Shown here piece after piece: positions 16,965 to 29,986 of a stretch of DNA of 64,000 nt; position 1 is the stretch's first letter, and each line of letters starts with the position of its first letter. This DNA comes from Hoeflea ulvae. GTDB lineage: Bacteria > Pseudomonadota > Alphaproteobacteria > Rhizobiales > Rhizobiaceae. The notes beneath the pieces were generated by a model, which saw only the letters and a program-made list of their open reading frames with translations, searched no databases and was not told the origin of the DNA. The stretch spans positions 4,657,501 to 4,721,500 of the forward strand of contig NZ_JAOVZQ010000001.1 of assembly GCF_026619435.1 (NCBI RefSeq). Direction: 5' to 3'. A program made the translations under genes and the position numbers.

Positions 16965-18221
16965 CTATTTCATCGAGGCCTTGACCTCGGCCACGTCCGC
17001 GGCAGTCATCTGGCCATTGGTGACGACCTCGCCACCCTTGATCTGCCACAGCCGGAACGGGCCGGAAATGTCGCCATACTGGTCAAACGACACATTGCCG
17101 ATCACGCCCTGATAGTTGATCGCCTTGCCGTCATTGATCAGGGCCAGCGCCTTCTTGAACTCGTCCGGTCCGGCATAGATCACTTCACCTTCCGGATCGA
17201 CCACCGAACGGATGGCGTCGCGGATGGCGTCGGCTTCCGCCTTGCCGGCCTTGGCCACGGCCAGTCCGACGATCGCGCCCGCATCATAGGACCGGTCGGC
17301 TGCCGGCGCCGATGGCGCAATACCGTCGGAGAAGGCTTCGTAATTGGCATAGAAATATTTGGTTGAATCGGTCTCGGTGGTGCCCGACGAGGTGCCATAG
17401 GCGCCCTCGAGATAATCCGCGCCGACGGCCTCGATGAAATCTGTCGAATTCATGCCGTCATTGAGCAGAAATTTCTGCGGTCCGCCCTGGCTGATCCAGG
17501 CCCGCGCCACGGTGGCGCCGTCGACGGGATAGCTGATCAGATACAGCGCGTCGGGGCTGCCTTCCATGGCAGCGGTCACTTCGGCGCTGTAGTTGGGCTG
17601 GTTCTCGTTATAAGGCGTCGCCGAGGTGATCTCGCCGCCGAGCGCCTCATAGGAAGCGGTGAACTCGCGCATCAAATTGAGGCCGAAATCATTGTTCACA
17701 TGGATGATGGCGAGCTTGGTCAGGCCCGAATCCATCGCGTATTTTGCGGCGGCGATGCCCTGCAACGCATCCGAGGTGATGGTGCGGAAGAAATAGCCGC
17801 CGGTCTTGCCGTCACGGCTGAGCTGCGTCAGCGTCGGGCTCGAGGACGCCGGCGAAACCTGCACGACGCCGGCCGCGGCCGTCACCGAGGTCAGGATCGG
17901 GATCGACACCGAGGAGATGATGCCCCCGATCACGACCGGAACCTGCTTGATGTTGACCAGCTGCGTCGCCTGGTCGACCGCCACATTGCCCTGGCTCTGG
18001 CTGTCACGGGTGTCGGTCACCAGATCGCAGCCGAGCACGCCGCCGGCTTCATTGATGTCGCGAAATGCCATTTCCACGGATTTTGCCCCGGCCTGACCAT
18101 AGGCGCCGGCCGGTCCGGTCAGTTCCATCACCATGCCGATGGTGATGTCGCAGGCTTGTGAACTCAATGCCGATGCGCAGAGCATGGCCATAGCAAGGCC
18201 CGATTTCTTGATCATGTTCAT
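16965..18221 (-). CDS. Branched-chain amino acid-type ABC substrate-binding protein
   Basis: 418-residue periplasmic protein of the Peripla_BP_6 (LivJ/LivK-like) family. The start at 18221 is set by AAGGAG seven bases upstream and by the signal peptide that follows (MNMIKKSGLAMAML, cleaved near SSQA-C); an upstream in-frame start at 18329 would put 36 residues before the signal. Family landmarks are ELTGPAGAYGQAGAKSVEMA, the SSSPTLTQLS ligand loop, and AIIHVNNDFGLNLMREF. It is the last gene of the minus-strand arm, facing livGFHM-type genes transcribed the other way, which otherwise lack a binding protein. Ligands in this family include amino acids, amides, urea and aromatic acids; this one is unknown. 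Confidence 0.88.
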   Translation of the reverse strand: MNMIKKSGLAMAMLCASALSSQACDITIGMVMELTGPAGAYGQAGAKSVEMAFRDINEAGGVLGCDLVTDTRDSQSQGNVAVDQATQLVNIKQVPVVIGGIISSVSIPILTSVTAAAGVVQVSPASSSPTLTQLSRDGKTGGYFFRTITSDALQGIAAAKYAMDSGLTKLAIIHVNNDFGLNLMREFTASYEALGGEITSATPYNENQPNYSAEVTAAMEGSPDALYLISYPVDGATVARAWISQGGPQKFLLNDGMNSTDFIEAVGADYLEGAYGTSSGTTETDSTKYFYANYEAFSDGIAPSAPAADRSYDAGAIVGLAVAKAGKAEADAIRDAIRSVVDPEGEVIYAGPDEFKKALALINDGKAINYQGVIGNVSFDQYGDISGPFRLWQIKGGEVVTNGQMTAADVAEVKASMK

Positions 18222-18261
18222 TCTCGTTCTCCTTGTTATCGGGCCTCTCTCGCCCGCTTTG

Positions 18262-18666
18262 TTATGGGGTAATCCAGGTTTCCTGAAGCTGCCGCCAGAC
18301 CACCCCCTCAGGCGCCTCCGGGTCAGCACTGAACACGGCAGATGTGCGGCGAGCGGTCTTCTGGCCGTCGATCACCTGATGCTCGTCATAGGTCACCAGC
18401 GCGATATCATTGCCGATCTGGCGCGCCGAGACCATGTCCACCCTGATTTCGAAATCTGCTGGGCGCTTGCCACGCGCACTCGTGATCATGCCGACGATCT
18501 CGTCTGCGCGGATGATCTTGCCATCCGGCTCGATCATCAGCATGTCAGGCGCAAAGGCCCGCGCCGAGATCTCCATCTCTGCTTCGCCGGCACGTCCGGT
18601 GAACCATTCCACGAAGAAATGATGCCTGTTGACGACTTCAGCCTGTGCACGCGCGATCAGGTCCAT
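18262..18666 (-). CDS. NTF2-like (SnoaL/DUF4440-type) protein
   Basis: 134-residue protein with the cone-shaped NTF2-like fold signature: a helical start (ARAQAEVVNRHHFFVEWFTG), the FAPDMLMIEPDGKIIRADEIVGMI strand-helix unit in short form FAPDMLMIEPDG, and the terminal WRQLQETWITP. Members of this fold include ketosteroid isomerases, cyclases and non-enzymatic small-ligand binders. It is encoded 4 bases after the aldo/keto reductase and 40 bases before the binding-protein gene, in one minus-strand operon. Possible isomerase or dehydratase acting on the imported compound; catalytic residues cannot be assigned. Confidence 0.7.
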   Translation of the reverse strand: MDLIARAQAEVVNRHHFFVEWFTGRAGEAEMEISARAFAPDMLMIEPDGKIIRADEIVGMITSARGKRPADFEIRVDMVSARQIGNDIALVTYDEHQVIDGQKTARRTSAVFSADPEAPEGVVWRQLQETWITP

Positions 18667-18670
18667 CGGC

Positions 18671-19723
18671 TCAATGCCCCTCTTTGTTGAGATTGTATTT
18701 CATCACCGAGCCATGCTTGCCGCTGCGGTCGCGCTCCAGCGTATAAACGTCGCCCGGCACCGAATTGGCGCGCGCCAGCACTTCATTGATCTCGGCAAAA
18801 TCCTCCGCGGTCAGGGCAATGTCGGGAATGGCCAGATTGCGGGCAAGGTGATTGCGGTTGCGCGCCCCGACGATCACCGCCGCCACGCCCGGACGCTCGA
18901 GGACCATCCGGCTGGCAATCGAGGCAATATCGCTGCCATGGCGCTGAGCGACGGCCGAAAGCGCCTTGAGCAGGTCCTGAAACAACGCCCAGCCGCCGAA
19001 TTCGTCGACGATCAGCTTGTACTTGGTCACGGAGCGGTTTTCGAAAGGCGCCTGCGGCTCGGGCGCACCGAGGGACCGCTCGGAAAACAGCCCGCCGCCT
19101 ACGGACCCGTAGCACAGAAGATTGATGCCATGCGCCTTGGCCGCCTGCACCATCTTGCGCGACGGCCGGTCATCAATCAGCGAGTACTGCACCTGCATGG
19201 ACACCAGCGGCACCCCGGCCTCGACGATGCGCAGCATCTGCTCGGTGTCGAAATTGGTGCCGCCGATATTGGCGATCTTGCCTTCGTCGCGCAGCTCGGC
19301 AAGCCAGGTGGCAACCTCGACCTGGCGGTCGATCTCGTAATCCCACCAGTGGAACTGGACCAGGTTGAGCTGTTCCATGCCCAGCCGTGAAAGCGAGGTC
19401 TCGATGCCCTCGGCCACATCCGCCCTGCTGATGCTGGAAAGCTTGCCGAGATCCGGCACGAATTTCGTGTGCACCTTGATCCGGCTCAGCGCTTCGGCGC
19501 CGCGCAGATTCCCATATTCCTTCCGGAATGCGCCGATCAGCGCCTCGACACCGGTGTAGATGTCGGCGCAGTCAAATGTGGTGATGCCGGCATCGGCAAA
19601 GGCAATCATGTCCTCGATCACCGATTGCCGGTCGATCTCGCCATGGCCGCCGGCCAGTTGCCAGCCACCCTTGATCACCCGGGAGATCCGGTGATCCGGC
19701 GCCAGTTCAAACATTTGCATCAT
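18671..19723 (-). CDS. Aldo/keto reductase
   Basis: 350-residue cytoplasmic NADPH-type oxidoreductase with a TIM barrel. The tetrad is visible: Asp and Tyr in TFDCADIYTG, Lys in IKVHTKFV, and His in NLVQFHWWDYE. The late VAAVIVGARNRNHLARNL forms the usual cofactor-binding end. The HWW motif and the LIDDRPSRK segment match the aldo/keto reductase part of the fused protein at 24270-25736 (FHWW, LIDRRAAGH), so the two are paralogues on the two arms of one divergent cluster. The start overlaps the preceding gene by 17 bases. The substrate is unknown. Confidence 0.87.
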   Translation of the reverse strand: MMQMFELAPDHRISRVIKGGWQLAGGHGEIDRQSVIEDMIAFADAGITTFDCADIYTGVEALIGAFRKEYGNLRGAEALSRIKVHTKFVPDLGKLSSISRADVAEGIETSLSRLGMEQLNLVQFHWWDYEIDRQVEVATWLAELRDEGKIANIGGTNFDTEQMLRIVEAGVPLVSMQVQYSLIDDRPSRKMVQAAKAHGINLLCYGSVGGGLFSERSLGAPEPQAPFENRSVTKYKLIVDEFGGWALFQDLLKALSAVAQRHGSDIASIASRMVLERPGVAAVIVGARNRNHLARNLAIPDIALTAEDFAEINEVLARANSVPGDVYTLERDRSGKHGSVMKYNLNKEGH

Positions 19724-20063
19724 TGTCTCCCAAGGGCACGGCAGTTGTGTCGGCGTGATTGAAACGCCGCAATTTGGTCCGGGTGATCTTCAGCCGCGAA
19801 GGACAGTGCGGATCGGGACAGGCGATTTCCGCATCGGTGGACATCCAGTCATTCGAATCCGTCTGCCGTTGCTTGGCAGCCAGCAGCGGCAGCACCGAAG
19901 CCAGCGAATAGATCGATATGCCCTGCCCGGGAGGCAGAAACAGCATTTCGCCCTGCAGTTCGAAATAATCGCCGACATGAGCGCCGCACCAGATCTTTGC
20001 CCCTTCGGGAGCCACCACCTCGACCTTGAGGTCCCACAGCTCGAACCCGTCATCCTTGCTCAT
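19707..20063 (-). CDS. TIGR04076-type small conserved protein
   Basis: 118-residue soluble protein. The landmarks WCGAHVGDYFELQGE, GISIYSLASVLPLL, KQRQTDSNDWM and IACPDPHC fit what I remember of the TIGR04076 family, whose function is not established. Two cysteines, in WCGA and PDPHC, are family-conserved by memory. It overlaps the GntR gene by 4 bases upstream (ATGA) and the aldo/keto reductase downstream, so it is translated within the same operon. A binding or chaperone-like role in the pathway is possible; no catalytic motif is seen. Confidence 0.65.
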   Translation of the reverse strand: MSKDDGFELWDLKVEVVAPEGAKIWCGAHVGDYFELQGEMLFLPPGQGISIYSLASVLPLLAAKQRQTDSNDWMSTDAEIACPDPHCPSRLKITRTKLRRFNHADTTAVPLGDNDANV

Positions 20064-20830
20064 AGCCCGGCTCCGCTTTGCGTTTTCCAGAATTCCGGGT
20101 CCGCTTTTTCAAGAATGGCGAAGACCTGGCTGATATCGGCCGTTAGTTCGTTCGAAACCCGAGTCTTGTCGCCAGCCCGGATCGCCTCGAGAATGCCGCG
20201 ATGATGCAGCGTCGCCGCCTTGTCGGTGAGCGGGCTGTGCAGTTTCGCGGCCGCACGCACATAGGGGCCGGCCTGCATCCACAAGCTTTCGACGATCGGC
20301 ATGAACACGGACGAACCGGCCGCCTCGTAGAGATGAAAATGAAAGGCATGATTGAGCAGGGTGATGTCTTCGGCTTCCCGCGCCTGATCATAATCCTCGG
20401 TCAGTACTTCCAGCCGGTCGATCTCGGCGCCCGACAGATTGTCGATCGCACGCGCGGCCAGCTCACCCTCGATCAGCGTTCTGGCCTGGGCGATATCGCG
20501 AGCGCGCTCCAGCGACAGCAGGGGCACCCGCACCCGCCGGTTTGCCATGGCTTCCAGCGCGCGCTCCGACACCAGTCGGGCCAGAGCCTCGCGCACCGGC
20601 ATCGAACTGACCGACATGCGCTGCGCGACATCGCCGGCCAGGAATATTTCGCCGGCGTCAAAGCGACCCTGGATCAGAGCGTCGCGAAGCTGCCGGTAGA
20701 TCCGGTCCTGAACCGTTTCGCGCCCGACAGGCGACAGCCGGTTCAATCCCGATTCGTCCATTCCTGTGTTGGCCTGAATGTTCATTCCACCGATATCCAC
20801 GCTCTGCGTTTGATACTTTACTTTAGGCAT
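20060..20830 (-). CDS. GntR family regulator (FadR/FCD type)
   Basis: 256-residue DNA-binding protein. The winged helix covers about residues 20-85, with RETVQDRIYRQLRDALIQG and MSVSSMPVREALARLVSE. The C-terminal all-helical FCD domain has the metal/ligand positions in the stretch from EGELAARAI through LLNHAFHFHLYEAAG to ATLHHRGILEAI. I chose the ATG at 20830; an upstream start at 20893 would run into the divergent ABC gene, and in-frame ATGs at 20785 and 20761 are also possible. It is divergent from the livG-type gene with a palindrome between, so it likely controls both arms. The effector is probably the imported substrate or an intermediate. Confidence 0.85.
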   Translation of the reverse strand: MPKVKYQTQSVDIGGMNIQANTGMDESGLNRLSPVGRETVQDRIYRQLRDALIQGRFDAGEIFLAGDVAQRMSVSSMPVREALARLVSERALEAMANRRVRVPLLSLERARDIAQARTLIEGELAARAIDNLSGAEIDRLEVLTEDYDQAREAEDITLLNHAFHFHLYEAAGSSVFMPIVESLWMQAGPYVRAAAKLHSPLTDKAATLHHRGILEAIRAGDKTRVSNELTADISQVFAILEKADPEFWKTQSGAGL

Positions 20831-20859
20831 CAAACATGGTCCTGTAAATGATAAATGAT

Positions 20860-20871
20860 AGTTGATCAACT
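20860..20871. promoter_or_regulatory. Palindromic putative GntR operator
   Basis: AGTTGATCAACT is a perfect 12-base palindrome in the 53-base gap between the divergent GntR and ATPase genes. FCD-type GntR regulators commonly bind short palindromes of this form (TTGATCAA-like). Its placement would let one site control both arms. Confidence 0.45.
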
Positions 20872-20883
20872 TTGGCTGAGTGA

Positions 20884-21666
20884 ATGACCCCACCCGTTCA
20901 GGCTTCCATCCTCAAGGCACGCGGCCTTACCAAATCCTTTGGCGGCCTGCGCGTTGTCGATGACATGTCGCTCGATCTGGGCAGCACCGAAATCCTTGGT
21001 ATCATCGGTCCGAACGGCGCCGGAAAGACCACGCTTTTCAATCTGCTGGCCGGTGCCGTTCCGATCGACGCCGGAACCATCGTGCTGGACGGCAAGGATA
21101 TAGGCAGGGCCCGCCCGGAAGCCCGGATCCAGTCCGGTCTGGGACGCACATTCCAGATCCCGCGGCCCTTTCCACGCATGACAATCCTCGAAAATGTGAT
21201 GACGGCGGCACAGAACCAGCGCGGCGAAAGCCTGGTCTCGGCCGTGCTCGCACCGCGCCGGGTCGCGGCTCAGGAGCGCGCAAATGCTGCCCGCGCCCGC
21301 GACATTCTCGACTTCGTTTCGCTCTCGCATCTTGAAGACCAGCCGGCGGCGGTGCTGTCCGGCGGACAGCGCAAACTGCTCGAACTCGCCCGCGTGATGA
21401 TGGCCGAACCACGCGCAATCCTGCTTGACGAACCGGCCGCGGGAGTGAACCCCGCGCTACTCGACCTGATCATCGACCGGATCATCGCCATCAACAGGCT
21501 GGGCATCGCAGTCCTGCTGATCGAGCACAATATGGAAATGATCGCCCGGCTCTGCCCGCGCGTCATTGTCATGGCGGCCGGCAAGTCCCTGGCCGAGGGT
21601 GCGCCGTCCGAGATCACCAAACGCGCTGATGTGATTGATGTCTATCTTGAAGGAATGCCGGCATGA
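20884..21666 (+). CDS. Branched-chain-type ABC importer ATPase, LivG family
   Basis: 260-residue cytoplasmic ATPase. Walker A GPNGAGKTT, signature LSGGQRKLLELARVMM and Walker B AILLDEPAAGVNP are intact, and the last quarter carries the LivG-type LLIEHNMEMIARLCPRVIVM. The insertion VMTAAQNQRGESLVS after the Q-loop is typical of LivG. It is the first gene of the plus-strand arm and overlaps the LivF-type gene by 4 bases (ATGA). Hydrolysis drives import with the partner ATPase and the LivH/LivM-type permeases. The substrate is not known to be an amino acid. Confidence 0.92.
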   Translation: MTPPVQASILKARGLTKSFGGLRVVDDMSLDLGSTEILGIIGPNGAGKTTLFNLLAGAVPIDAGTIVLDGKDIGRARPEARIQSGLGRTFQIPRPFPRMTILENVMTAAQNQRGESLVSAVLAPRRVAAQERANAARARDILDFVSLSHLEDQPAAVLSGGQRKLLELARVMMAEPRAILLDEPAAGVNPALLDLIIDRIIAINRLGIAVLLIEHNMEMIARLCPRVIVMAAGKSLAEGAPSEITKRADVIDVYLEGMPA

Positions 21667-22394
21667 CCGCGCTTTCGGTGCAGGGTCTGCACGCCGGTTA
21701 CGACCGTGATCTCCCCATTGTCAAAGGTGTCAGTTTCAGCGTTCCCAAGGGCGAGGCCGTGTGCATTCTCGGCCCCAACGGCGCCGGAAAATCAACCATG
21801 ATCAAGGCCATTGCCGGGCAGGTCGCCTGTTTCGGCGGGCATGTCCGGCTCGGCGAAACCGACATCACCGGCCTGCCCTCCCATGAACTGGTTCGCAACG
21901 GCATGGGCTTCGTGCCGCAGACCGAAAACATCTTCACCAGCCTGACCATATTCGAGAACCTGCAGATTGCGGCGCAATTGTTGCCGCGTGCCGATCGGGC
22001 GGCGAGGATCGACGCCATGCTCGACATGTTCCCCGATCTTGGCGCCCGCCCGCGCGAGCTCGCCGGCGCGCTTTCCGGCGGGCAGCGCCAAATGCTGGCG
22101 GCAGCCCGCGCATTGCTGACCGAACCGCAGGTGCTGATGCTGGACGAGCCCTCGGCCGGCCTGTCACCCAAGCTGGTCGGGCAGGTTTTCGACACCCTGC
22201 GGCGCATTTCCGACTCCGGCGTGACGCTGGTGCTGGTGGAACAGAATGTCCGCGCGGCCCTGTCGCTGACCTCCCGTGCCCTTGTGCTTGTCGACGGCGA
22301 ACTGGCCCATGACGGGTCGACCGAAGCGCTTCACGACGGCAGCCTGCTGGGTGAATTGTTTCTCGGCCACCGCGCTGCGGAGGCAAACGCATGA
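21663..22394 (+). CDS. Branched-chain-type ABC importer ATPase, LivF family
   Basis: 243-residue cytoplasmic ATPase, the second nucleotide-binding subunit. It shows Walker A GPNGAGKST, the LivF-type ELVRNGMGFVPQTENIF Q-loop region, signature LSGGQRQMLAAARAL and Walker B VLMLDEPSAGLSP. Start and stop both overlap neighbours by 4 bases (ATGA), so translation of the arm is coupled. It works as a heterodimer with the LivG-type subunit. Confidence 0.92.
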   Translation: MTALSVQGLHAGYDRDLPIVKGVSFSVPKGEAVCILGPNGAGKSTMIKAIAGQVACFGGHVRLGETDITGLPSHELVRNGMGFVPQTENIFTSLTIFENLQIAAQLLPRADRAARIDAMLDMFPDLGARPRELAGALSGGQRQMLAAARALLTEPQVLMLDEPSAGLSPKLVGQVFDTLRRISDSGVTLVLVEQNVRAALSLTSRALVLVDGELAHDGSTEALHDGSLLGELFLGHRAAEANA

Positions 22395-23305
22395 ACCCGC
22401 AAGCCATCATCGACGGGCTGATATCCGGATCGACCATCGGACTGGGCGCCATCGGCCTGACGCTCACCTATTCCATCCTTCGCTTTGCCAATTTCACCCA
22501 TGGCGATTTTCTCGCTTGGGGCGCCTATCTCACGCTGACCGTTGCCGGTGTGCTGGGCGGACTGGCAGCCGGTCTCGGTGCACCGCTCACGCCCTTCAGC
22601 TTTGGCTGGGGCCTGCCGCTTGCCGTGCTCGGCGGCGTCGTGCTCACCGTGGCGCTGGCGCTCGGGCTTGACCGCGTCCTGTTCGGCCGGTTGCGCGCCC
22701 GCGGCGCCGACGCCATCATCATCGTCATGGCAAGCTTCGGCGCCTCCATGGCGCTCAGATCGCTGCTCGAATTCATCTTCACGGCAAAGCCCGCCTATTT
22801 CACCAAGGCCCTGCAGATCGCCAAGCCATTGGGGCTGGGCATGCGCGCCACCCCGGACCAGCTTCTGGTTATCGGTCTGACCGCTGTTCTGGTGCTGATG
22901 CTGCATCTGCTGGTCACGCATTCCGCCATCGGACGGGCAATGCGCGCGGTCTCGGAGAACCCGGCGCTTGCCGGCGTGTTCGGGGTGGATGTCGACAAGG
23001 TGGTGCGCGTCACCTGGATCATCGGCGCCAGCATGGCCTGTCTGGCCGGCGTCATGGCGGGATTGCTGGTGCAGATCCGGCCCTATATGGGCTTTGACCT
23101 GTTGCTGCCGCTGTTTGCCGCAGCCATTCTCGGCGGCATCGGCTCCATTCCCGGCGCCATGCTCGGAGGCCTGATCATCGGCCTGACCGAAGCCTTCGCG
23201 GTGCAGATCATCGGCGCCGAATGGCGCGCCGCCATCTCCTTCATCATTCTCGTTCTGGTGCTGATGTTGCGCCCGCAGGGCCTCTTCGGCCGAAAGGGGG
23301 CTTGA
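22391..23305 (+). CDS. Branched-chain-type ABC importer permease, LivH family
   Basis: 304-residue inner-membrane permease with about eight hydrophobic helices. It has the LivH opening IDGLISGSTIGLGAIGLTL, the FANFTHGDFLAWGAY helix motif, the coupling stretch AIGRAMRAVSENPALAGVFGV and the GGIGSIPGAMLGGLIIG near the end. It overlaps the LivF-type gene by 4 bases and abuts the LivM-type gene. It forms one half of the pore. Confidence 0.9.
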   Translation: MNPQAIIDGLISGSTIGLGAIGLTLTYSILRFANFTHGDFLAWGAYLTLTVAGVLGGLAAGLGAPLTPFSFGWGLPLAVLGGVVLTVALALGLDRVLFGRLRARGADAIIIVMASFGASMALRSLLEFIFTAKPAYFTKALQIAKPLGLGMRATPDQLLVIGLTAVLVLMLHLLVTHSAIGRAMRAVSENPALAGVFGVDVDKVVRVTWIIGASMACLAGVMAGLLVQIRPYMGFDLLLPLFAAAILGGIGSIPGAMLGGLIIGLTEAFAVQIIGAEWRAAISFIILVLVLMLRPQGLFGRKGA

Positions 23306-24265
23306 ATGGAAATTCTCGCCTATGCCGCCTTCTTTCTTACCGTGGCACTGACCTATGCGATTATGTGCCTGGGCCTGAATGTGCAGTGGGGACAAACCGG
23401 CCTGTTCAATGTCGGCATCGCCGGCTTCGTCGGGATCGGCGCCTATGTGTCGGCGGCCCTGACCACGCCGGATGTGGCCGAGCGCATCGGCGGTTTCGGC
23501 CTGCCGATCGCCGTCGGCTGGCTTGCGGCAATGGCTGCGGGCGGCTTGCTGGCGCTGGCCGTCGGGCTGCTGACGCTGAGAATGCGGTCTGACTATCTGG
23601 CCATCACCACCTTCGGCATTGCGGTTGCGCTGCAACTGGTTTTCCAGAACGCCGAAAGCCTCACCGGCGGCGCATTCGGAATGGCCTTTATCCCGCGGCC
23701 CTTTGCCGGGCTGCAGGGACAGGCCTTCGCCTTCAATGTCATCAATCTGGCGCTGACCGCAGCCGTGGTGCTGGTGTGTTATCTGCTGCTCGAACACCTC
23801 CTGCGCAGCCCCTGGGGCCGGGCCCTGCGGGCGGTGCGCGAAGATGAAACCGCCGCACAGGCCCTGGGCAAGAACCCGGTGCTGTTGCGGATCCAGGCTT
23901 TTGCGCTGGGCGGCGTCATCATGGCCCTTGCCGGCGCGGTTCAAGCCCATTTCATCGGCTTCATTGCACCGGGCAATTACCTGCCGATGATGACCTTCCA
24001 GGTCTGGGCCATGCTGATCGTCGGCGGCTCGGGCAACAATCGCGGAGCCATTCTCGGTGCCGTGCTTGTCTGGGCGATCTGGGCGCTGTCGGGTGCATTG
24101 ATTTCGGAAGTCTTCCCGGCCGATCAGCAGGCCCGCGCCGCATCGCTGCAGATCGTGGCCATCGGGGTCATGCTGTGCGTCATTCTTCTCTGGCGGCCGC
24201 AGGGCATTTTGCCCGAGGTGCGCTCTGTCTCGCGCCATCTCGGCCGTCGCAACAAGGACCGGTGA
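23306..24265 (+). CDS. Branched-chain-type ABC importer permease, LivM family
   Basis: 319-residue inner-membrane permease, the second half of the pore. Family landmarks are NVQWGQTGLFNVGIAGFVGIGAY in abbreviated form NVQWGQTGLFNVG, RSDYLAITTFGIA, WGRALRAVREDETAAQALG (coupling loop) and LIVGGSGNNRGAILGAV. It starts directly at the base after the LivH-type stop and is followed after 4 bases by the aldo/keto reductase-RidA fusion, so the enzyme is co-transcribed with the importer. Confidence 0.9.
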   Translation: MEILAYAAFFLTVALTYAIMCLGLNVQWGQTGLFNVGIAGFVGIGAYVSAALTTPDVAERIGGFGLPIAVGWLAAMAAGGLLALAVGLLTLRMRSDYLAITTFGIAVALQLVFQNAESLTGGAFGMAFIPRPFAGLQGQAFAFNVINLALTAAVVLVCYLLLEHLLRSPWGRALRAVREDETAAQALGKNPVLLRIQAFALGGVIMALAGAVQAHFIGFIAPGNYLPMMTFQVWAMLIVGGSGNNRGAILGAVLVWAIWALSGALISEVFPADQQARAASLQIVAIGVMLCVILLWRPQGILPEVRSVSRHLGRRNKDR

Positions 24266-24269
24266 ATTC

Positions 24270-25736
24270 ATGAAACCTGACCGCAAAGATCTCGCACCCG
24301 GCCTCTCCATCAGCCGCATTCTGACCGGCCTCTGGCAGGTGGCCGACCAGGAGAAGGACGGCACCACGCTCGATCCCGTGGCAGGCGCCCGCGCACTCAC
24401 CGGTTATGCCGAAGCCGGCTTCGACACTTTCGACATGGCCGATCATTACGGCAGCGCCGAACTGATCACCGGCGAAATGCTGCGCGGCTGGAAGGGCGAG
24501 ACCCGCCCCAAAGCGTTTACCAAATGGTGCCCGGAACCAGGACCGATGACAGCCGAGATTGTCCGCGCCGGTGTCCAGCAAAGGCTCGACCGCCTCAGTG
24601 TCGACCGCGTTGACCTGCTGCAGTTTCACTGGTGGACATTCGAACACCCGGCCTGGCTCGACGCCCTGCATGAATTGACCCGGTTGCGGCAAGATGGGCT
24701 GATTGGCGAGATCGGCGTCACCAATTTCGATGCCGCGCACCTCAACCTGGCCCTGGCCGATGGCATTCCGCTGGTCTCCAACCAGGTCTCCTTCTCGCTG
24801 ATCGATCGCCGCGCGGCCGGGCATCTGGCGGAAACCTGCAGCAAACACAATGTGCAACTGCTCGCCTATGGCACCCTGTGCGGCGGCTTTCTGTCCGAAC
24901 GCTGGCTCGACAAGCCCGAACCCGAGTCGGTCGCCGACTGGAGCGGCTCGAAATATCTGCGCTTCATCCACGCCGCCGGTGGCTGGGATGCCTATCAGGG
25001 CATCCTCAGGGCAGCCAGCCAGATCGCCACCAAACACAAGGTCTCGATTTCCAACGTCGCCACCCGCTGGGTCCTCGAACATGCCCATGTCGCCGGCGCC
25101 ATTGTCGGGGCGCGATTGGGCGAGAACCAGCACCGCGCCGATAATCTGCGGCTGTTCCAGTTCGAACTCGACCGGGACGACCACGCATTGTTGGACCAGG
25201 CATTTGCGGCGACAACTCCAATTCCCGGTGATTGCGGCGATGAATACCGCCAGCCGCCGTTTCTCACTGCGTCAGGCGATCTCAGCCACCATCTGGCCGA
25301 AATGCCCAGCGCCATGGAGGCCGTCACCGATCCGGACAATCCGGACCGGGCGCGGGTCTTCTCCGGCTCGCTGTGGGAGCCGATCGCCGGCTATTGCCGG
25401 GCCTTGCGCGATAGCGACCGTATCGTTGTCTCGGGCACGACAGCCACCCACGGCGTCGACCATACCGTGGCGCTTGACGACGCCGGCGCGCAGACCACCT
25501 ACATTCTCGACAAGATCGCGGCTTCCGTGCGGGCGCTTGGCGGAGACCCGAAGGATATCCTGCGCACGCGGATGTATCTGCGCGGCGATGAAGATGTCGA
25601 GCCCGCGGCACGCGCTCACGGGCTGCGCTTCACCACCAATCCACCGGCCAACACCACATTCCTGGTGGGCAATCTGATCGGCGACTTCCGGGTCGAGATC
25701 GAAGCCGAGGCGGTCGTCAGCAAGAAACGCGGATAG
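24270..25736 (+). CDS. Aldo/keto reductase fused to a RidA-like domain
   Basis: 488-residue cytoplasmic two-domain protein. Residues 1 to about 335 are an aldo/keto reductase with the tetrad in FDMADHYGSAE (Asp, Tyr), KAFTKWCPE (Lys) and LLQFHWW (His). Residues about 363-488 are a RidA (YjgF/YER057c) domain, seen from VFSGSLWEPIAGYCRA through VVSGTTATHG and ILRTRMYLRG to RVEIEAEAVV. RidA removes reactive enamines, and its key Arg lies in a PARS-type motif; here the motif reads PANTT with Asn461. The domain is thus probably not a standard imine deaminase. The two fused domains suggest a coupled chemistry on the imported substrate. The first domain is paralogous to 18671-19723. Confidence 0.85.
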   Translation: MKPDRKDLAPGLSISRILTGLWQVADQEKDGTTLDPVAGARALTGYAEAGFDTFDMADHYGSAELITGEMLRGWKGETRPKAFTKWCPEPGPMTAEIVRAGVQQRLDRLSVDRVDLLQFHWWTFEHPAWLDALHELTRLRQDGLIGEIGVTNFDAAHLNLALADGIPLVSNQVSFSLIDRRAAGHLAETCSKHNVQLLAYGTLCGGFLSERWLDKPEPESVADWSGSKYLRFIHAAGGWDAYQGILRAASQIATKHKVSISNVATRWVLEHAHVAGAIVGARLGENQHRADNLRLFQFELDRDDHALLDQAFAATTPIPGDCGDEYRQPPFLTASGDLSHHLAEMPSAMEAVTDPDNPDRARVFSGSLWEPIAGYCRALRDSDRIVVSGTTATHGVDHTVALDDAGAQTTYILDKIAASVRALGGDPKDILRTRMYLRGDEDVEPAARAHGLRFTTNPPANTTFLVGNLIGDFRVEIEAEAVVSKKRG

Positions 25737-25780: not shown

Positions 25781-27025
25781 TCAAAACCGGTCAACACGAT
25801 AGGGTTCCAGATCCACATTGGTTTGACGCCGCGAGGCAAGGTCAGCAACCATCCGTGCGATTTTGGGGCCGATCGTCAACCCGACATGCTGCCCGCCATA
25901 AGCATGCACGACATTGGGTGCGTTCACTGACTCTCCCACAACAGGAAGGCTGTCGGGTGTTGTCGGCCTGCGCCCCATCCATACCTTCTGGTATTCGAAT
26001 TGGAGACCCGGATAGACTCTTCTCATATGTCTCGTGAGCAAATCCGTTGGTGCCTTCGCTGCGGGAGCATCCGACCCGCCGAATTCGACAACCCCAGCCG
26101 CCCGCAAGGCTCCTGCCATCGGAGTGACAACGAATTTGGCATCGGTAATCACATAGGGTTGTGGTGCGCTAAAATTCGGGTTGTGCATCGAGACATGATA
26201 GCCGCGTTCCGCCTCCAGTTTGACCGATACGCCCAGTTTGCGGGACAATTTCGCCGACCAGGCACCGGCACACAAAATGATCTTCTCACCCTGCAGTACC
26301 TCGCCTTCCGGCAGGGTCAGGCTGGGTTTCATGCCAGCTCTGATATCCACAACCTCGGCACGCTTGAATCGCCCCCCTTGCGCCAGGAAGTGATCGAACA
26401 AAGCAGCGACATAGGATCCGGGCGAGCTGATCCAGGCAAAGTCCTTGAAGACAGCACCGAAGGTGTAGGAAGGACCAAGATGCGGATCGCGTTCAACCAG
26501 TTGCTCCCGGTCCAGATGTCCAGGAACCAAACCGTATTTCTCGCGAATCGAGTTTCCGAGACGATTGGCATCAAAATCCGCTCTGGATCGGTAAAGCTCC
26601 ACCAGTTCACCGGTTTCGATGAAATCTGCTGCAGGCGTTCCCTTGGCCAAATTCTGATGCTGCTCAACGGCGTCGTGGGTCAGTGACGAAAGGCTCGCCG
26701 CGATCTCCATGACCTTGTCGACGTTTCCGTTGCGCAAATATGGGACAAGCCAGGGCAGCAATCGCGGCAGATAGCGCCAGCGCAAGAACAGCGGTGAATC
26801 TGGGTCCAGCAACATGCCCGGCGCCTTTGCCAGAAGTCCGGGCATGGATACCGGAAGGACCGATGTATTGGCTAACAACCCGGCATTTCCATATGACGTC
26901 TGATCCGGATCTCCGGGGGAGACGCGATCAACCAGCGTCACGCTCCAGCCATCGCGGCGCAGCCATTCCGCCGCGCACACTCCGGTGATTCCGCCTCCAA
27001 CGACAAGAATTGGTCTGGCTTGCAT
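25781..27025 (-). CDS. FAD-dependent amino acid oxidoreductase (DadA-like)
   Basis: 414-residue flavoprotein of the DAO/DadA family, which oxidises D-amino acids or secondary amines. The N-terminal dinucleotide fold is ILVVGGGITGVCAAEWL, and the C-terminal FAD contact is NVVHAYGGQHVGLTIGP. AGGAG lies 10 bases before the start. It is the last gene of the importer-oxidoreductase operon, 32 bases after the previous gene. Base composition seems a little less GC-rich than its neighbours by eye, which could mean a separate acquisition; this was not computed. The substrate may be a secondary amine or D-amino acid released by the upstream enzymes. Confidence 0.82.
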   Translation of the reverse strand: MQARPILVVGGGITGVCAAEWLRRDGWSVTLVDRVSPGDPDQTSYGNAGLLANTSVLPVSMPGLLAKAPGMLLDPDSPLFLRWRYLPRLLPWLVPYLRNGNVDKVMEIAASLSSLTHDAVEQHQNLAKGTPAADFIETGELVELYRSRADFDANRLGNSIREKYGLVPGHLDREQLVERDPHLGPSYTFGAVFKDFAWISSPGSYVAALFDHFLAQGGRFKRAEVVDIRAGMKPSLTLPEGEVLQGEKIILCAGAWSAKLSRKLGVSVKLEAERGYHVSMHNPNFSAPQPYVITDAKFVVTPMAGALRAAGVVEFGGSDAPAAKAPTDLLTRHMRRVYPGLQFEYQKVWMGRRPTTPDSLPVVGESVNAPNVVHAYGGQHVGLTIGPKIARMVADLASRRQTNVDLEPYRVDRF

Positions 27026-27057
27026 TATCCGTTGATCTCCTATTCAGAACCCCCAAC

Positions 27058-28362
27058 TCAGATTCCAAGTCGGTCCCGCAACCGGTAGACCGCCACGGAG
27101 GGTGCCAGGAACCACGGATTTCCGGTATAGAAAGGCTGCGTCCTGAACGGGATCTGGCTGAAGGCGCCGAGGTCTTCGTCGATGCCGGCTGCGGCCTTGC
27201 CGACTTTCGCGCCGAGATAGCCGGCCATGCCGACACCCGAGCCGCAATAGCCCATGGCATAGAAGAGATTGTTGTCCTCGCCGCAATGCATCAGCGTGTC
27301 GAAGGTAAAGGCCACGATGCCGGCCCAGGAATGGCTGATGCGCGTTGCCCCGAGCTCGGGAAACAGCCGCACCAGTTCCGCCAGCAGTTTCGGCCCGCTC
27401 TTGCGCGGATCGGTTTCCTGCAGCGACACGCGGCCGCCGAACAGGATCCGCTTCCGGTCCGGCGATGGCCGGTAGTAATAGACCAGCTTGCGGGTGTCGG
27501 AGAGCACGCGATTGGTCGGAAACAACCGGTCCATCACGTCCTTTGCAATTTCCTCTGTGGCAATCACATAGGACCCGATCGGGATCACCCGACGCTGTTG
27601 CCAGGGCGTCAGCGGGCCGGTGTAGCCATTGGTGGCGATGATCACCTTCCCGGCGCGGATCCGCCCCTTGTCGGTCGAGACCTCGAAGGCCTCCCCGCTG
27701 CGCTCGAGCTCATTGACCCGGCAGTGGCTGACAATGCGCGCACCGGCGGCAATTGCCACCTTCAACAACCCGGCATGATATTTTCCGGGATCTATGCTGG
27801 AGTGCCGCGGAAAGACGATCCCGCCATAATAGGCTTCGGTGCCAAGTTCGGTGCGCAACTGGCTGCGCGGAACCATGAAGGCTTCGGTGTCGAAACCGGG
27901 ATGGCTGATTTCGCAGTCGCGCGCCAGCTTGTCATATTGCCGTCCGGTATGGGCGCCATGGAAACGGCCGACCATGCCGAAATCGCAATCGATATCCTCG
28001 TCGCTGACGAAATTGGTCACGTGATCGAGCGAGGCCTGACCTTCCTTGAGAATCTCGATCGCCCGCGCAACACCGTAGCGCTGCGACAGCGCTGAAAACG
28101 AGGGTTTGACGCTGGTCGAAATCTGTCCGCCATTGCGGGTGCTGCAGCCGAAGCCGGCCGCTTCCGCGTCGACGACGACGGTTTCAAGCCCGGCCCGCGC
28201 CGTCTGCACAGCCGCATGCAGGCCGGTGTATCCGGCTCCGATGATCACCACATCCGCAGTGGCAGGCAGACCTGCCTGGCCGTCAGCCGGTCTCGGGCTG
28301 GCGTCCCACCAATAGGGCGCTGCCTTGAAATCGGGACTGAAGCAGTCGTCTGGTTGCGTCAT
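27058..28362 (-). CDS. FAD-dependent oxidoreductase (PuuB/gamma-glutamylputrescine oxidase-like)
   Basis: 434-residue flavoprotein of the DAO superfamily. The typical PuuB-type opening APYWWDASPRP precedes the FAD fold DVVIIGAGYTGLHAAVQTA, and GFGCSTRNGGQIS is the next conserved stretch. ATNGYTGPLTPW and AMGYCGSGVGMAGYLG follow later. Relatives oxidise gamma-glutamylputrescine or other amines. It starts 2 bases after the GMC-oxidoreductase stop, and with the PotDABC-type importer upstream the context suggests polyamine or amino-alcohol oxidation. No gamma-glutamylputrescine synthetase or dehydrogenase is adjacent, so the classical Puu pathway is not complete here. Confidence 0.83.
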   Translation of the reverse strand: MTQPDDCFSPDFKAAPYWWDASPRPADGQAGLPATADVVIIGAGYTGLHAAVQTARAGLETVVVDAEAAGFGCSTRNGGQISTSVKPSFSALSQRYGVARAIEILKEGQASLDHVTNFVSDEDIDCDFGMVGRFHGAHTGRQYDKLARDCEISHPGFDTEAFMVPRSQLRTELGTEAYYGGIVFPRHSSIDPGKYHAGLLKVAIAAGARIVSHCRVNELERSGEAFEVSTDKGRIRAGKVIIATNGYTGPLTPWQQRRVIPIGSYVIATEEIAKDVMDRLFPTNRVLSDTRKLVYYYRPSPDRKRILFGGRVSLQETDPRKSGPKLLAELVRLFPELGATRISHSWAGIVAFTFDTLMHCGEDNNLFYAMGYCGSGVGMAGYLGAKVGKAAAGIDEDLGAFSQIPFRTQPFYTGNPWFLAPSVAVYRLRDRLGI

Positions 28363-28363
28363 C

Positions 28364-29986
28364 TTAGGCTCCCGCCTGGTCGGAAAGGATCATGTCCGCC
28401 CCTTTTTCCGCCACCATGATTGTCGGCGCATTGGTGTTGCCCGATGTCACGGTCGGAAACACCGAAGCATCGATCACCCGCAGATGTGACAGCCCGTGAA
28501 CCTGAAGCCGCGCATTGACCACATTGTGGGTCTCGTCCTCTCCCATCCGGCAGGTGCTGACCGGGTGGAACACGGTGCCGGCCCGCGCACGGATATCGGC
28601 GATCATTTCCTCGTCCGTCTCCACCTGCCGCCCGGGACGGATTTCCTCTTCGAGGATCTCGGCGAAGGCCGGGGCCTGGGCCAGTTTGCGCAAGAACCGC
28701 ACGCCTTCCAGTTGCTCGGCGACATCGTGATTGGTCGACAGGTAATTGGGATGAATCGCCGGCGTGTCGAACGGATCGGCGGATCTGAGTTCCAGATGGC
28801 CGCGACTCGTCGGCCGGGTCGGCTGGGTTCCCATGATCACGCCGGAGAACGGGTCCGGACTCATCAAGGGCCGCTTGCCCGGAGGCGCCTTGGTGTAGCT
28901 GACCGGCGAAAAATAGAGCTGCATGTTGGGCCGGTCCAGCTCCGGCCGCGTGCGAATGAACCCGCCACCCTGGTTGACCCCGAGCGACAGCGGTCCGCGG
29001 CGGCGCAGCACATAATCGATGCCGTGCCGCAATTTCCCGAGCAACGGTCTCAATTCATCATTGAGCGTGCGCACCCTCGCCCTGTAGGTGTGGTCGATAC
29101 ACAGATGATCCTGCAGATGCCGGCCCACATTCGGCTGCGCGTGCACCACATCGATCCCTTGCCGCCTGAGCACGTCTGCGGGACCGACGCCTGACAGCAT
29201 CAGCAGTTGCGGCGAATTCACCGATCCGCCCGACACGATGACCTCGCGTCCGGCCAGGACCTGCTCGACCGTGCCGTTGCGGACATATTCGACGCCGGTC
29301 GCCCGCGTCCCGTCAAACAGGATCCGTGTCGCATGGGCGCGCGAGATGACCGTCAGGTTTCGCCGTTTGCGGGCCGGGTGCAGATAGGCGCGTGCCGCCG
29401 ACATCCGGAACCCGCCCTTGGCGGTGTTCTGGTACAGCCCGATGCCCTCATTGCTGGCCGCGTTGAAATCCGGATTGTAGACCAGACCGCATTGCTCGCC
29501 GGCCCGGACAAAATTCTGGCAGGTCGGATGCAGGTCCTGATCCATGGTCGAGACATATAACGGCCCGTCGCCACCGCGCCACTCCGTTGCACCCTGATCG
29601 CTGGTCTCGCTCTTTTTGAAATAGGGCAGCACGTCGTTCCAGCCCCAGCCCGGATTGCCCATGGCTTGCCAGTCGTCGAAGTCACCGTGATGGCCACGGA
29701 TATAGACCATGGCATTGATCGACGAAGAGCCGCCGATCACCTTGCCGCGCGGCCAGTAGCTGACGCGGTTGTCGGTTCCGGGGTCGGGTTCGGAGCGGTA
29801 CATCCAGTTGATGCGCTTGTCGTAAAACGCCATGCCGTAGCCGATCGGCATCCAGATCTTGAAATTGCTGTCATGGCCACCGGCCTCGAGCAGCAGCACT
29901 GAATATCTGCCGTTTTCGGTCAGCCGGTTTGCCAGCACGCAACCAGCCGAACCTGCGCCAACAATCACAAAGTCATAAGTCTGCAC
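28364..29986 (-). CDS. GMC-family FAD oxidoreductase (choline dehydrogenase-like)
   Basis: 540-residue flavoprotein oxidising alcohols. FAD-binding starts at [21 protein letters not shown] signature 1 is around [18 protein letters not shown] and signature 2 around [16 protein letters not shown]. The C-terminal catalytic pair is His in [11 protein letters not shown] and Asn in [10 protein letters not shown]. Relatives include choline and polyethylene-glycol dehydrogenases. A membrane signal is not seen. It lies between the importer and the amine oxidases in one operon, so the imported compound may be an amino alcohol; choline itself is not proven. Confidence 0.87.

Follow-up and report, generated by a model that had tools for sequence, protein, structure and literature searches.

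A stretch of 64,000 nt from Hoeflea ulvae (contig NZ_JAOVZQ010000001.1, positions 4,657,501 to 4,721,500; the genome comprises 5.1 Mb in two contigs), hereafter the window, carries at 16965–25736 a cassette of ten genes in two arms that diverge from a perfect palindrome of 12 bp; one of the genes encodes a GntR-FCD regulator (Table 1). An earlier note, made from the sequence alone, had described this arrangement and read it as a strong candidate for an undescribed uptake-and-reduction system. Each part lies at the coordinates that the note had given, and the profile scores listed in Table 1 are above their cut-offs, including those of the single polypeptide that matches both an aldo/keto reductase (AKR; PF00248) and a Rid domain (PF01042), which we call the AKR-Rid fusion.

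Table 1. The cassette in window coordinates, with profile scores in bits and cut-offs in brackets.
Feature	Position	Strand	Evidence and remarks
Periplasmic binding protein, type I, HAAT/LIV family, 417 aa	16968..18218	-	PF13458 160.3 (31.7)
NTF2-like / DUF4440 protein	18265..18666	-	PF08472 37.9 (34.4); DUF4440 26.6 (25.2); optional cassette member
Aldo/keto reductase AKR1	18674..19723	-	PF00248 222 (24)
TIGR04076 family protein	19710..20063	-	61.4 (NCBIfam 33); regular AKR1 neighbour
GntR-family regulator with FCD domain	20063..20830 (start 20830 or 20785)	-	GntR 46.3 (27); FCD 71.7 (24.3)
Palindrome AGTTGATCAACT, probable GntR operator	20860..20871		core TTGATCAA kept in 56 of 59 GntR-livG gaps
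ATP-binding cassette (ABC) ATPase, LivG type	20884..21663	+	family profile matches
ABC ATPase, LivF type	21663..22391	+	family profile matches
ABC permease, LivH type (BPD_transp_2)	22391..23302	+	family profile matches
ABC permease, LivM type (BPD_transp_2)	23306..24262	+	family profile matches
Aldo/keto reductase fused to arginine-less Rid domain, 488 aa	24270..25733	+	PF00248 182.2 (24); PF01042 49.1 (27.3)

The gene set is a real conserved unit. We read the neighbours of 80 fusion loci, the best 80 of at least 577, within a first set of 115 system loci (L and G numbers denote loci and genomes; the gene-content count was made without L093, L104 and L106). Among the 80, AKR1 occurs in 70, the TIGR04076 protein in 69 and the binding protein in 66, and the binding protein, AKR1, TIGR04076, LivM and fusion stand together in 78 of the 115. 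Of 249 genomes drawn from the order, 27 carry the fusion, 36 carry TIGR04076 and 24 carry both (Fisher 1.9e-21), so that TIGR04076 is present in 24 of 27 fusion genomes versus 12 of 222 others. The two genes lie within 6 kb of each other in 23 of the 24 genomes that have both, the remaining genome (G441) having them on different contigs, and the three fusion genomes that lack TIGR04076 (G454, G465 and G619) show no LIV system in their fusion stretches. In a wider sample of 385 genomes of the class, the fusion was found in only 9 and TIGR04076 in 20, which makes the cassette an accessory system; the fusion also occurs in 18 plasmid records. A full-text literature search found no publication describing the gene cassette which, as far as that search shows, is undescribed.

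Two main layouts recur. The first is that of the window; in the second, one side holds the binding protein, LivMHFG, AKR1 and TIGR04076, and the opposite side holds GntR with the fusion. The placement of the binding protein on the arm opposite its transporter, to which the earlier note had drawn attention, is therefore real and conserved within the window's layout, but other layouts put its gene beside the permease genes.

Both enzymes belong to the AKR superfamily, scoring above the PF00248 cut-off and retaining Asp, Tyr, Lys and His, the AKR catalytic tetrad. In the fusion, D55, Y60, K85, H120 and N461 are invariant in 21 aligned sequences, and both domains are present in all 120 of the best-listed homologues. 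The Rid half is less conventional. It is a PF01042 domain and shares with the RidA/YjgF imine deaminases an equivalent of Glu120, but it differs from them in being joined to an AKR and in having Asn at the position of RidA Arg105, a replacement seen in 87 of 87 fusions as well as in all 5 free Rids that were compared. The accessible parts of two earlier studies tie imine deamination to the RidA arginine and give the arginine-less subfamilies no function (PMC4433059, PMC5619798); the former, likewise as far as its accessible text goes, states that Rid4–7 also lack the arginine and that their function was not known in 2015. Because of the Asn and of the arginine requirement set out in these parts of both studies, we do not call the Rid half of the fusion an imine deaminase.

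Asp, Tyr and Lys of the tetrad are kept in all 140 aligned AKR1 relatives and His in 108; the other 32 have Phe, Tyr or Cys at the expected catalytic His. NADH-dependent methylglyoxal reductase YdjG, the best NCBIfam match of AKR1, was considered and rejected as an identity for the cassette enzymes, the scores being 69.8 and 57.3 bits against an equivalog cut-off of 550. The TIGR04076 protein, a member of its family by score, has three cysteines (C26, C82 and C87) that are invariant in 39 rows, and its structure model has a pLDDT of 89.2. The NTF2-like protein, whose relative in the PDB is 1tp6 (PA1314), turns up in 23 of the 115 loci and, in a second sample described below, in 15 of 35.

The importer is of the same five-protein type and fold as the LIV/HAAT importer LivJKHMGF, but its subunits fall far under the Liv equivalog and subfamily cut-offs and it is tied to AKR and Rid enzymes. 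LivG, LivF, LivH, LivM and the binding protein each score below the NCBIfam cut-off for an E. coli-type LIV importer (for instance LivG 199, cut-off 362; binding protein 94, cut-off 477). A urea importer of the UrtA–E type was rejected, every listed score being below its NCBIfam cut-off, as with UrtE (200.9 against 285.8). The best fold matches of the binding protein are binders of leucine or aromatic acids; in the alignment, its A124, S126, Y230 and D254 match residues of 4n0q or 3ip5 that we take to be ligand contacts. The binding proteins of the system form a clade of their own (support 98/94).

The palindrome lies between the candidate GntR starts and the livG start, and AGTTGATCAACT has a single exact copy in the window, with five matches at up to two mismatches versus 1.21 expected. 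Its core, TTGATCAA, is present in 56 of 59 GntR–livG gaps, these being the loci with divergent GntR (>38% identity) and LivG (>50%) genes, window included; of the exceptions (L010, L037 and L089), L037 and L089 carry TGTGATCACA in its place. The 10-mer KTTGATCAAM occurs 61 times over L001–L080 and L089–L126 versus 2.4 times in shuffled sequence. The site also persists where the gene content changes. It is found in L113, on a distant branch of binding proteins and with tryptophan 2,3-dioxygenase (TDO) and kynureninase; in the betaproteobacterium Caballeronia (L098), where it separates GntR from a kynureninase-like gene (31.4 bits for PF22580, cut-off 27); and in a Neorhizobium variant (L099), ahead of a DAO-family gene, of a Rid/livG pair and of the binding-protein gene of a peptide importer. 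From this recurrence, we regard the palindrome as the probable operator of GntR, through which the cassette is probably co-regulated. The H. ulvae genome contains 16 KTTGATCAAM sites, eight times the frequency in a reversed control, and other regulators or targets may use the motif there.

The loci that have a related binding protein and no fusion bear on the chemistry of the fusion. In L097, L098, L101 and L114, a DAO-family FAD enzyme and a DUF3830 protein occur instead, and L099, L118 and L121 combine a DAO-family enzyme with a free Rid; none of the seven has a fusion at a 38% identity threshold. An aspartate-dehydrogenase-like protein is found in L103, and also beside the fusion in six other loci; of all these genes, L120 and L122 carry just a free Rid. 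The swap was seen again in the second sample, which covers 35 of the 36 TIGR04076 genomes of the order sample, window included and G446 left out (L177 and L186 being short stretches; in G441, the genome of L186, the fusion is on a different contig). There, 6 of the 35 loci have DAO, and precisely these have DUF3830; they come from three genera, with 6 among the 13 loci without the fusion versus 0 among the 22 with it (Fisher 0.001). AKR1 is present in all 35. Together with the swap, this casts AKR1–TIGR04076 as the constant pair; the fusion is one solution among two or more that can replace one another. Because an amine-oxidase-type flavin enzyme of the DAO family stands in for it, the fusion probably acts at a carbon–nitrogen bond and not as a plain reductase. 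Against the 'reduction' of the earlier note, the variants point to work on a C–N bond that is likely oxidative. The ten loci in which DUF3830 accompanies the DAO-family oxidase (L171–L176, L097, L098, L101 and L114) had no Rid scored, which suggests that DUF3830 and Rid are functional equivalents.

The substrate, which the earlier note had called unknown, can be narrowed statistically, though short of proof, to the tryptophan/kynurenine/anthranilate family. Counted over 115 loci (here without L093, L098 and L106), TDO occurs in four (L011, L030, L063 and L113), with about 0.49 expected by chance (P 0.0016); kynureninase in four (L011, L030, L113 and L122, with L120 only partial); IorA in five (L007, L056, L060, L067 and L120); and an enzyme of the salicylyl/2-aminobenzoyl-CoA hydroxylase type in two, and a related protein of the benzoate-CoA-ligase family in two. 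In L113, TDO scores above the Pfam cut-off and below the NCBIfam one, and kynureninase above both. Any marker of a wide set is found in 12 of the 115 loci versus 0 of 20 random windows, a small control drawn from 6 genomes, and 4 of 20 LIV controls. With the markers fixed beforehand, the second sample gave TDO in 4 of 35 loci (L176, L178, L197 and L201), none repeating an earlier TDO locus, against about 0.13 expected (P 1e-5 counted as four loci, 3e-4 counted as three lineages); the expectations assume one TDO per 4.6 or 5 Mb. In L178, TDO and a hydrolase with 33% identity to the L113 BD-FAE protein are directly next to the AKR1–TIGR04076 pair; BD-FAE proteins include kynurenine formamidases. 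A tally of TDO over whole genomes gives 48 of 53 (20 TIGR04076 genomes and the genomes of 33 of the 80 fusion loci), and is not unbiased because it includes three genomes already known to have TDO.

Two other groups of neighbours were seen. In Pseudorhodobacter and Nitratireductor (L007, L056, L060 and L067), IorAB and a cyclase of PF04199, the family of isatin hydrolase and kynurenine formamidase, lie 3′ of the fusion, hinting at aryl-glyoxylate chemistry. On a Natronosalvus plasmid (L102), a haloarchaeal TIGR04076–AKR pair adjoins a peptide importer, with genes for indoleamine 2,3-dioxygenase and kynureninase at a distance of about 9 kb.

The H. ulvae genome itself has a tryptophan-to-anthranilate operon elsewhere (L127, C1:3409000-3428999), with TDO, kynureninase, Rid, a CoA ligase of the benzoate-CoA-ligase family, a cupin protein and a LIV importer. 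The binding protein next closest to that of the cassette adjoins TDO, in this genome and in four Hoeflea; the one of L127 is 33–34% identical to the window's. Because the system's binding proteins form their own clade, the ligand of the cassette need not equal that of the TDO operon. Following the cassette, at 25781–29986, are three minus-strand flavoprotein genes (DadA-like, PuuB-like and GMC, assigned by eye), of which the PuuB-like and GMC genes are kept at 80% identity or more in 7 of the nearest loci (L001–L005, L009 and L013); they look like a separate unit.

Taking these observations together, we tentatively favour, while giving it less than an even chance, a GntR-controlled system that takes up an amino compound of the tryptophan, kynurenine or 2-aminobenzoyl type and breaks it down oxidatively. 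We infer the chemistry of each enzyme from its family and its variants. The binding protein would capture an amino-acid-like ligand, which the LIV-type ABC importer would bring into the cell, and GntR would control both arms from the palindrome. The AKR half of the fusion would perform an NAD(P)-linked redox reaction at the amino group or adjacent to it, in the role that the DAO-family flavoenzyme has in the variants, and the arginine-less Rid half would take the step that follows, in the role of DUF3830 or a free Rid. AKR1 and TIGR04076 would act on the carbonyl side, and the products would feed pathways of the anthranilate type, genes for which adjoin the cassette in some lineages and are also present elsewhere in the H. 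ulvae genome. A more specific proposal, which we consider rather unlikely as a whole, is that the AKR-Rid fusions represent a novel type of amine-processing enzyme, whose AKR half oxidises the C–N bond (or reduces the resulting imine) rather than acting on a carbonyl, that the arginine-less Rid acts on the product, that DUF3830 and such a Rid are interchangeable partners, which would be the earliest role assigned to either family, and that the whole is a new branch of aromatic amino acid breakdown.

Several observations weigh against the tryptophan-family reading and its chemistry. No tryptophan-pathway marker lies beside 103 of the 115 loci, even with the wide set, beside 31 of the 35 second-sample loci or in the window, where TDO and kynureninase are absent from the 19-kb locus, and the separate TDO/kynureninase operon of the H. 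ulvae genome has its own LIV importer. Kynureninase also adjoins 4 of 20 control LIV binding proteins, all of one family. The four TDO loci of the second sample represent three genera, one of them (L176) with only 29% identity, and that sample partly overlaps the first, repeating the window, L191 (= L089) and L196 (= L078). As for the swap, L171–L174 share 81–87% DNA identity with L097, from which it had first been proposed, so the new lineages are L175 and L176, at about 76%; four system loci (L113, L124, L179 and L180) had no fusion, DAO, free Rid or aspartate-dehydrogenase-like gene scored, and the Rid domain is without the arginine regarded as required to hydrolyse imines. The tie of the fusion to the rest of the cassette is not absolute: the stretches fetched for L183, L184, L185, L189 and L190, picked because their genomes looked odd, have the fusion without the binding protein, an AKR1 ortholog or a LIV permease, and AKR1 is absent from 10 of the 80 fusion loci (L002, L008, L025, L028, L038, L042, L051, L053, L059 and L075), contig ends explaining some of these (L002, L008 and L028).

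An alternative is an imported amino compound outside the tryptophan family, with tryptophan genes adjoining only because catabolic genes gather in islands, an explanation that we regard as possible if somewhat doubtful. The scarcity of markers and the kynureninase beside LIV controls speak for it, as do the other recurrent neighbours: a protein of the enolase superfamily in 7 loci, from Hoeflea and Defluviimonas, a short-chain dehydrogenase/reductase in 5, a class I aminotransferase in 4, a hydantoinase-like protein in 4 and peptide-importer permeases in 11, identities read by eye and counts that carry no enrichment statistic. It accounts poorly for the TDO excess, which was repeated with pre-fixed markers at loci distinct from the first four. 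The conventional tetrads of both AKRs, and YdjG as the best NCBIfam match of AKR1, recommend a carbonyl-reducing or detoxifying system, in which an aldehyde or ketone, whether imported or internal, would be the substrate that both enzymes reduce, with the Rid dealing with side products. We find this improbable, given how far the YdjG score lies below its cut-off, the amine-oxidase-type FAD enzymes that replace the fusion, the Rid without its catalytic arginine, and a dedicated importer and regulator, which favour a nutrient. The DAO-family swap also argues against a sugar, amino sugar or polyol ligand, whose keto and hydroxy forms the AKRs would interconvert; although IolS-like and 2,5-diketogluconate-reductase-like AKR matches and polyol genes beside one locus point that way, the importer and binding protein are of the amino-acid/amide type, with best fold matches that bind leucine or aromatic acids, and such a ligand seems very improbable.

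Besides the LIV/HAAT importer and the RidA/YjgF deaminases, two described systems come close to the cassette. The tryptophan-to-anthranilate operon (TDO, kynureninase, formamidase and 2-aminobenzoyl-CoA enzymes) supplies genes that adjoin the cassette in several lineages and, in the H. ulvae genome, includes the paralogous LIV importer, but the window cassette holds none of its enzymes. In L099, L118 and L121, the DAO-family enzyme and free Rid resemble D-arginine dehydrogenase DauA with Rid2/Rid3, as presented in the accessible part of PMC5619798; the 80 fusion loci differ in having an AKR in place of the flavoenzyme and a Rid without the arginine.

If the preferred reading, breakdown of a tryptophan-family amino compound, is true, the cassette would provide the first functions for TIGR04076, for DUF3830 and for the arginine-less Rid group, for which the libraries and literature covered give none, and for the AKR-Rid fusion. 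It would also offer a testable swap, in which AKR-Rid and DAO with DUF3830 are exchanged alongside a binding protein, an importer and an AKR1–TIGR04076 pair of one kind.

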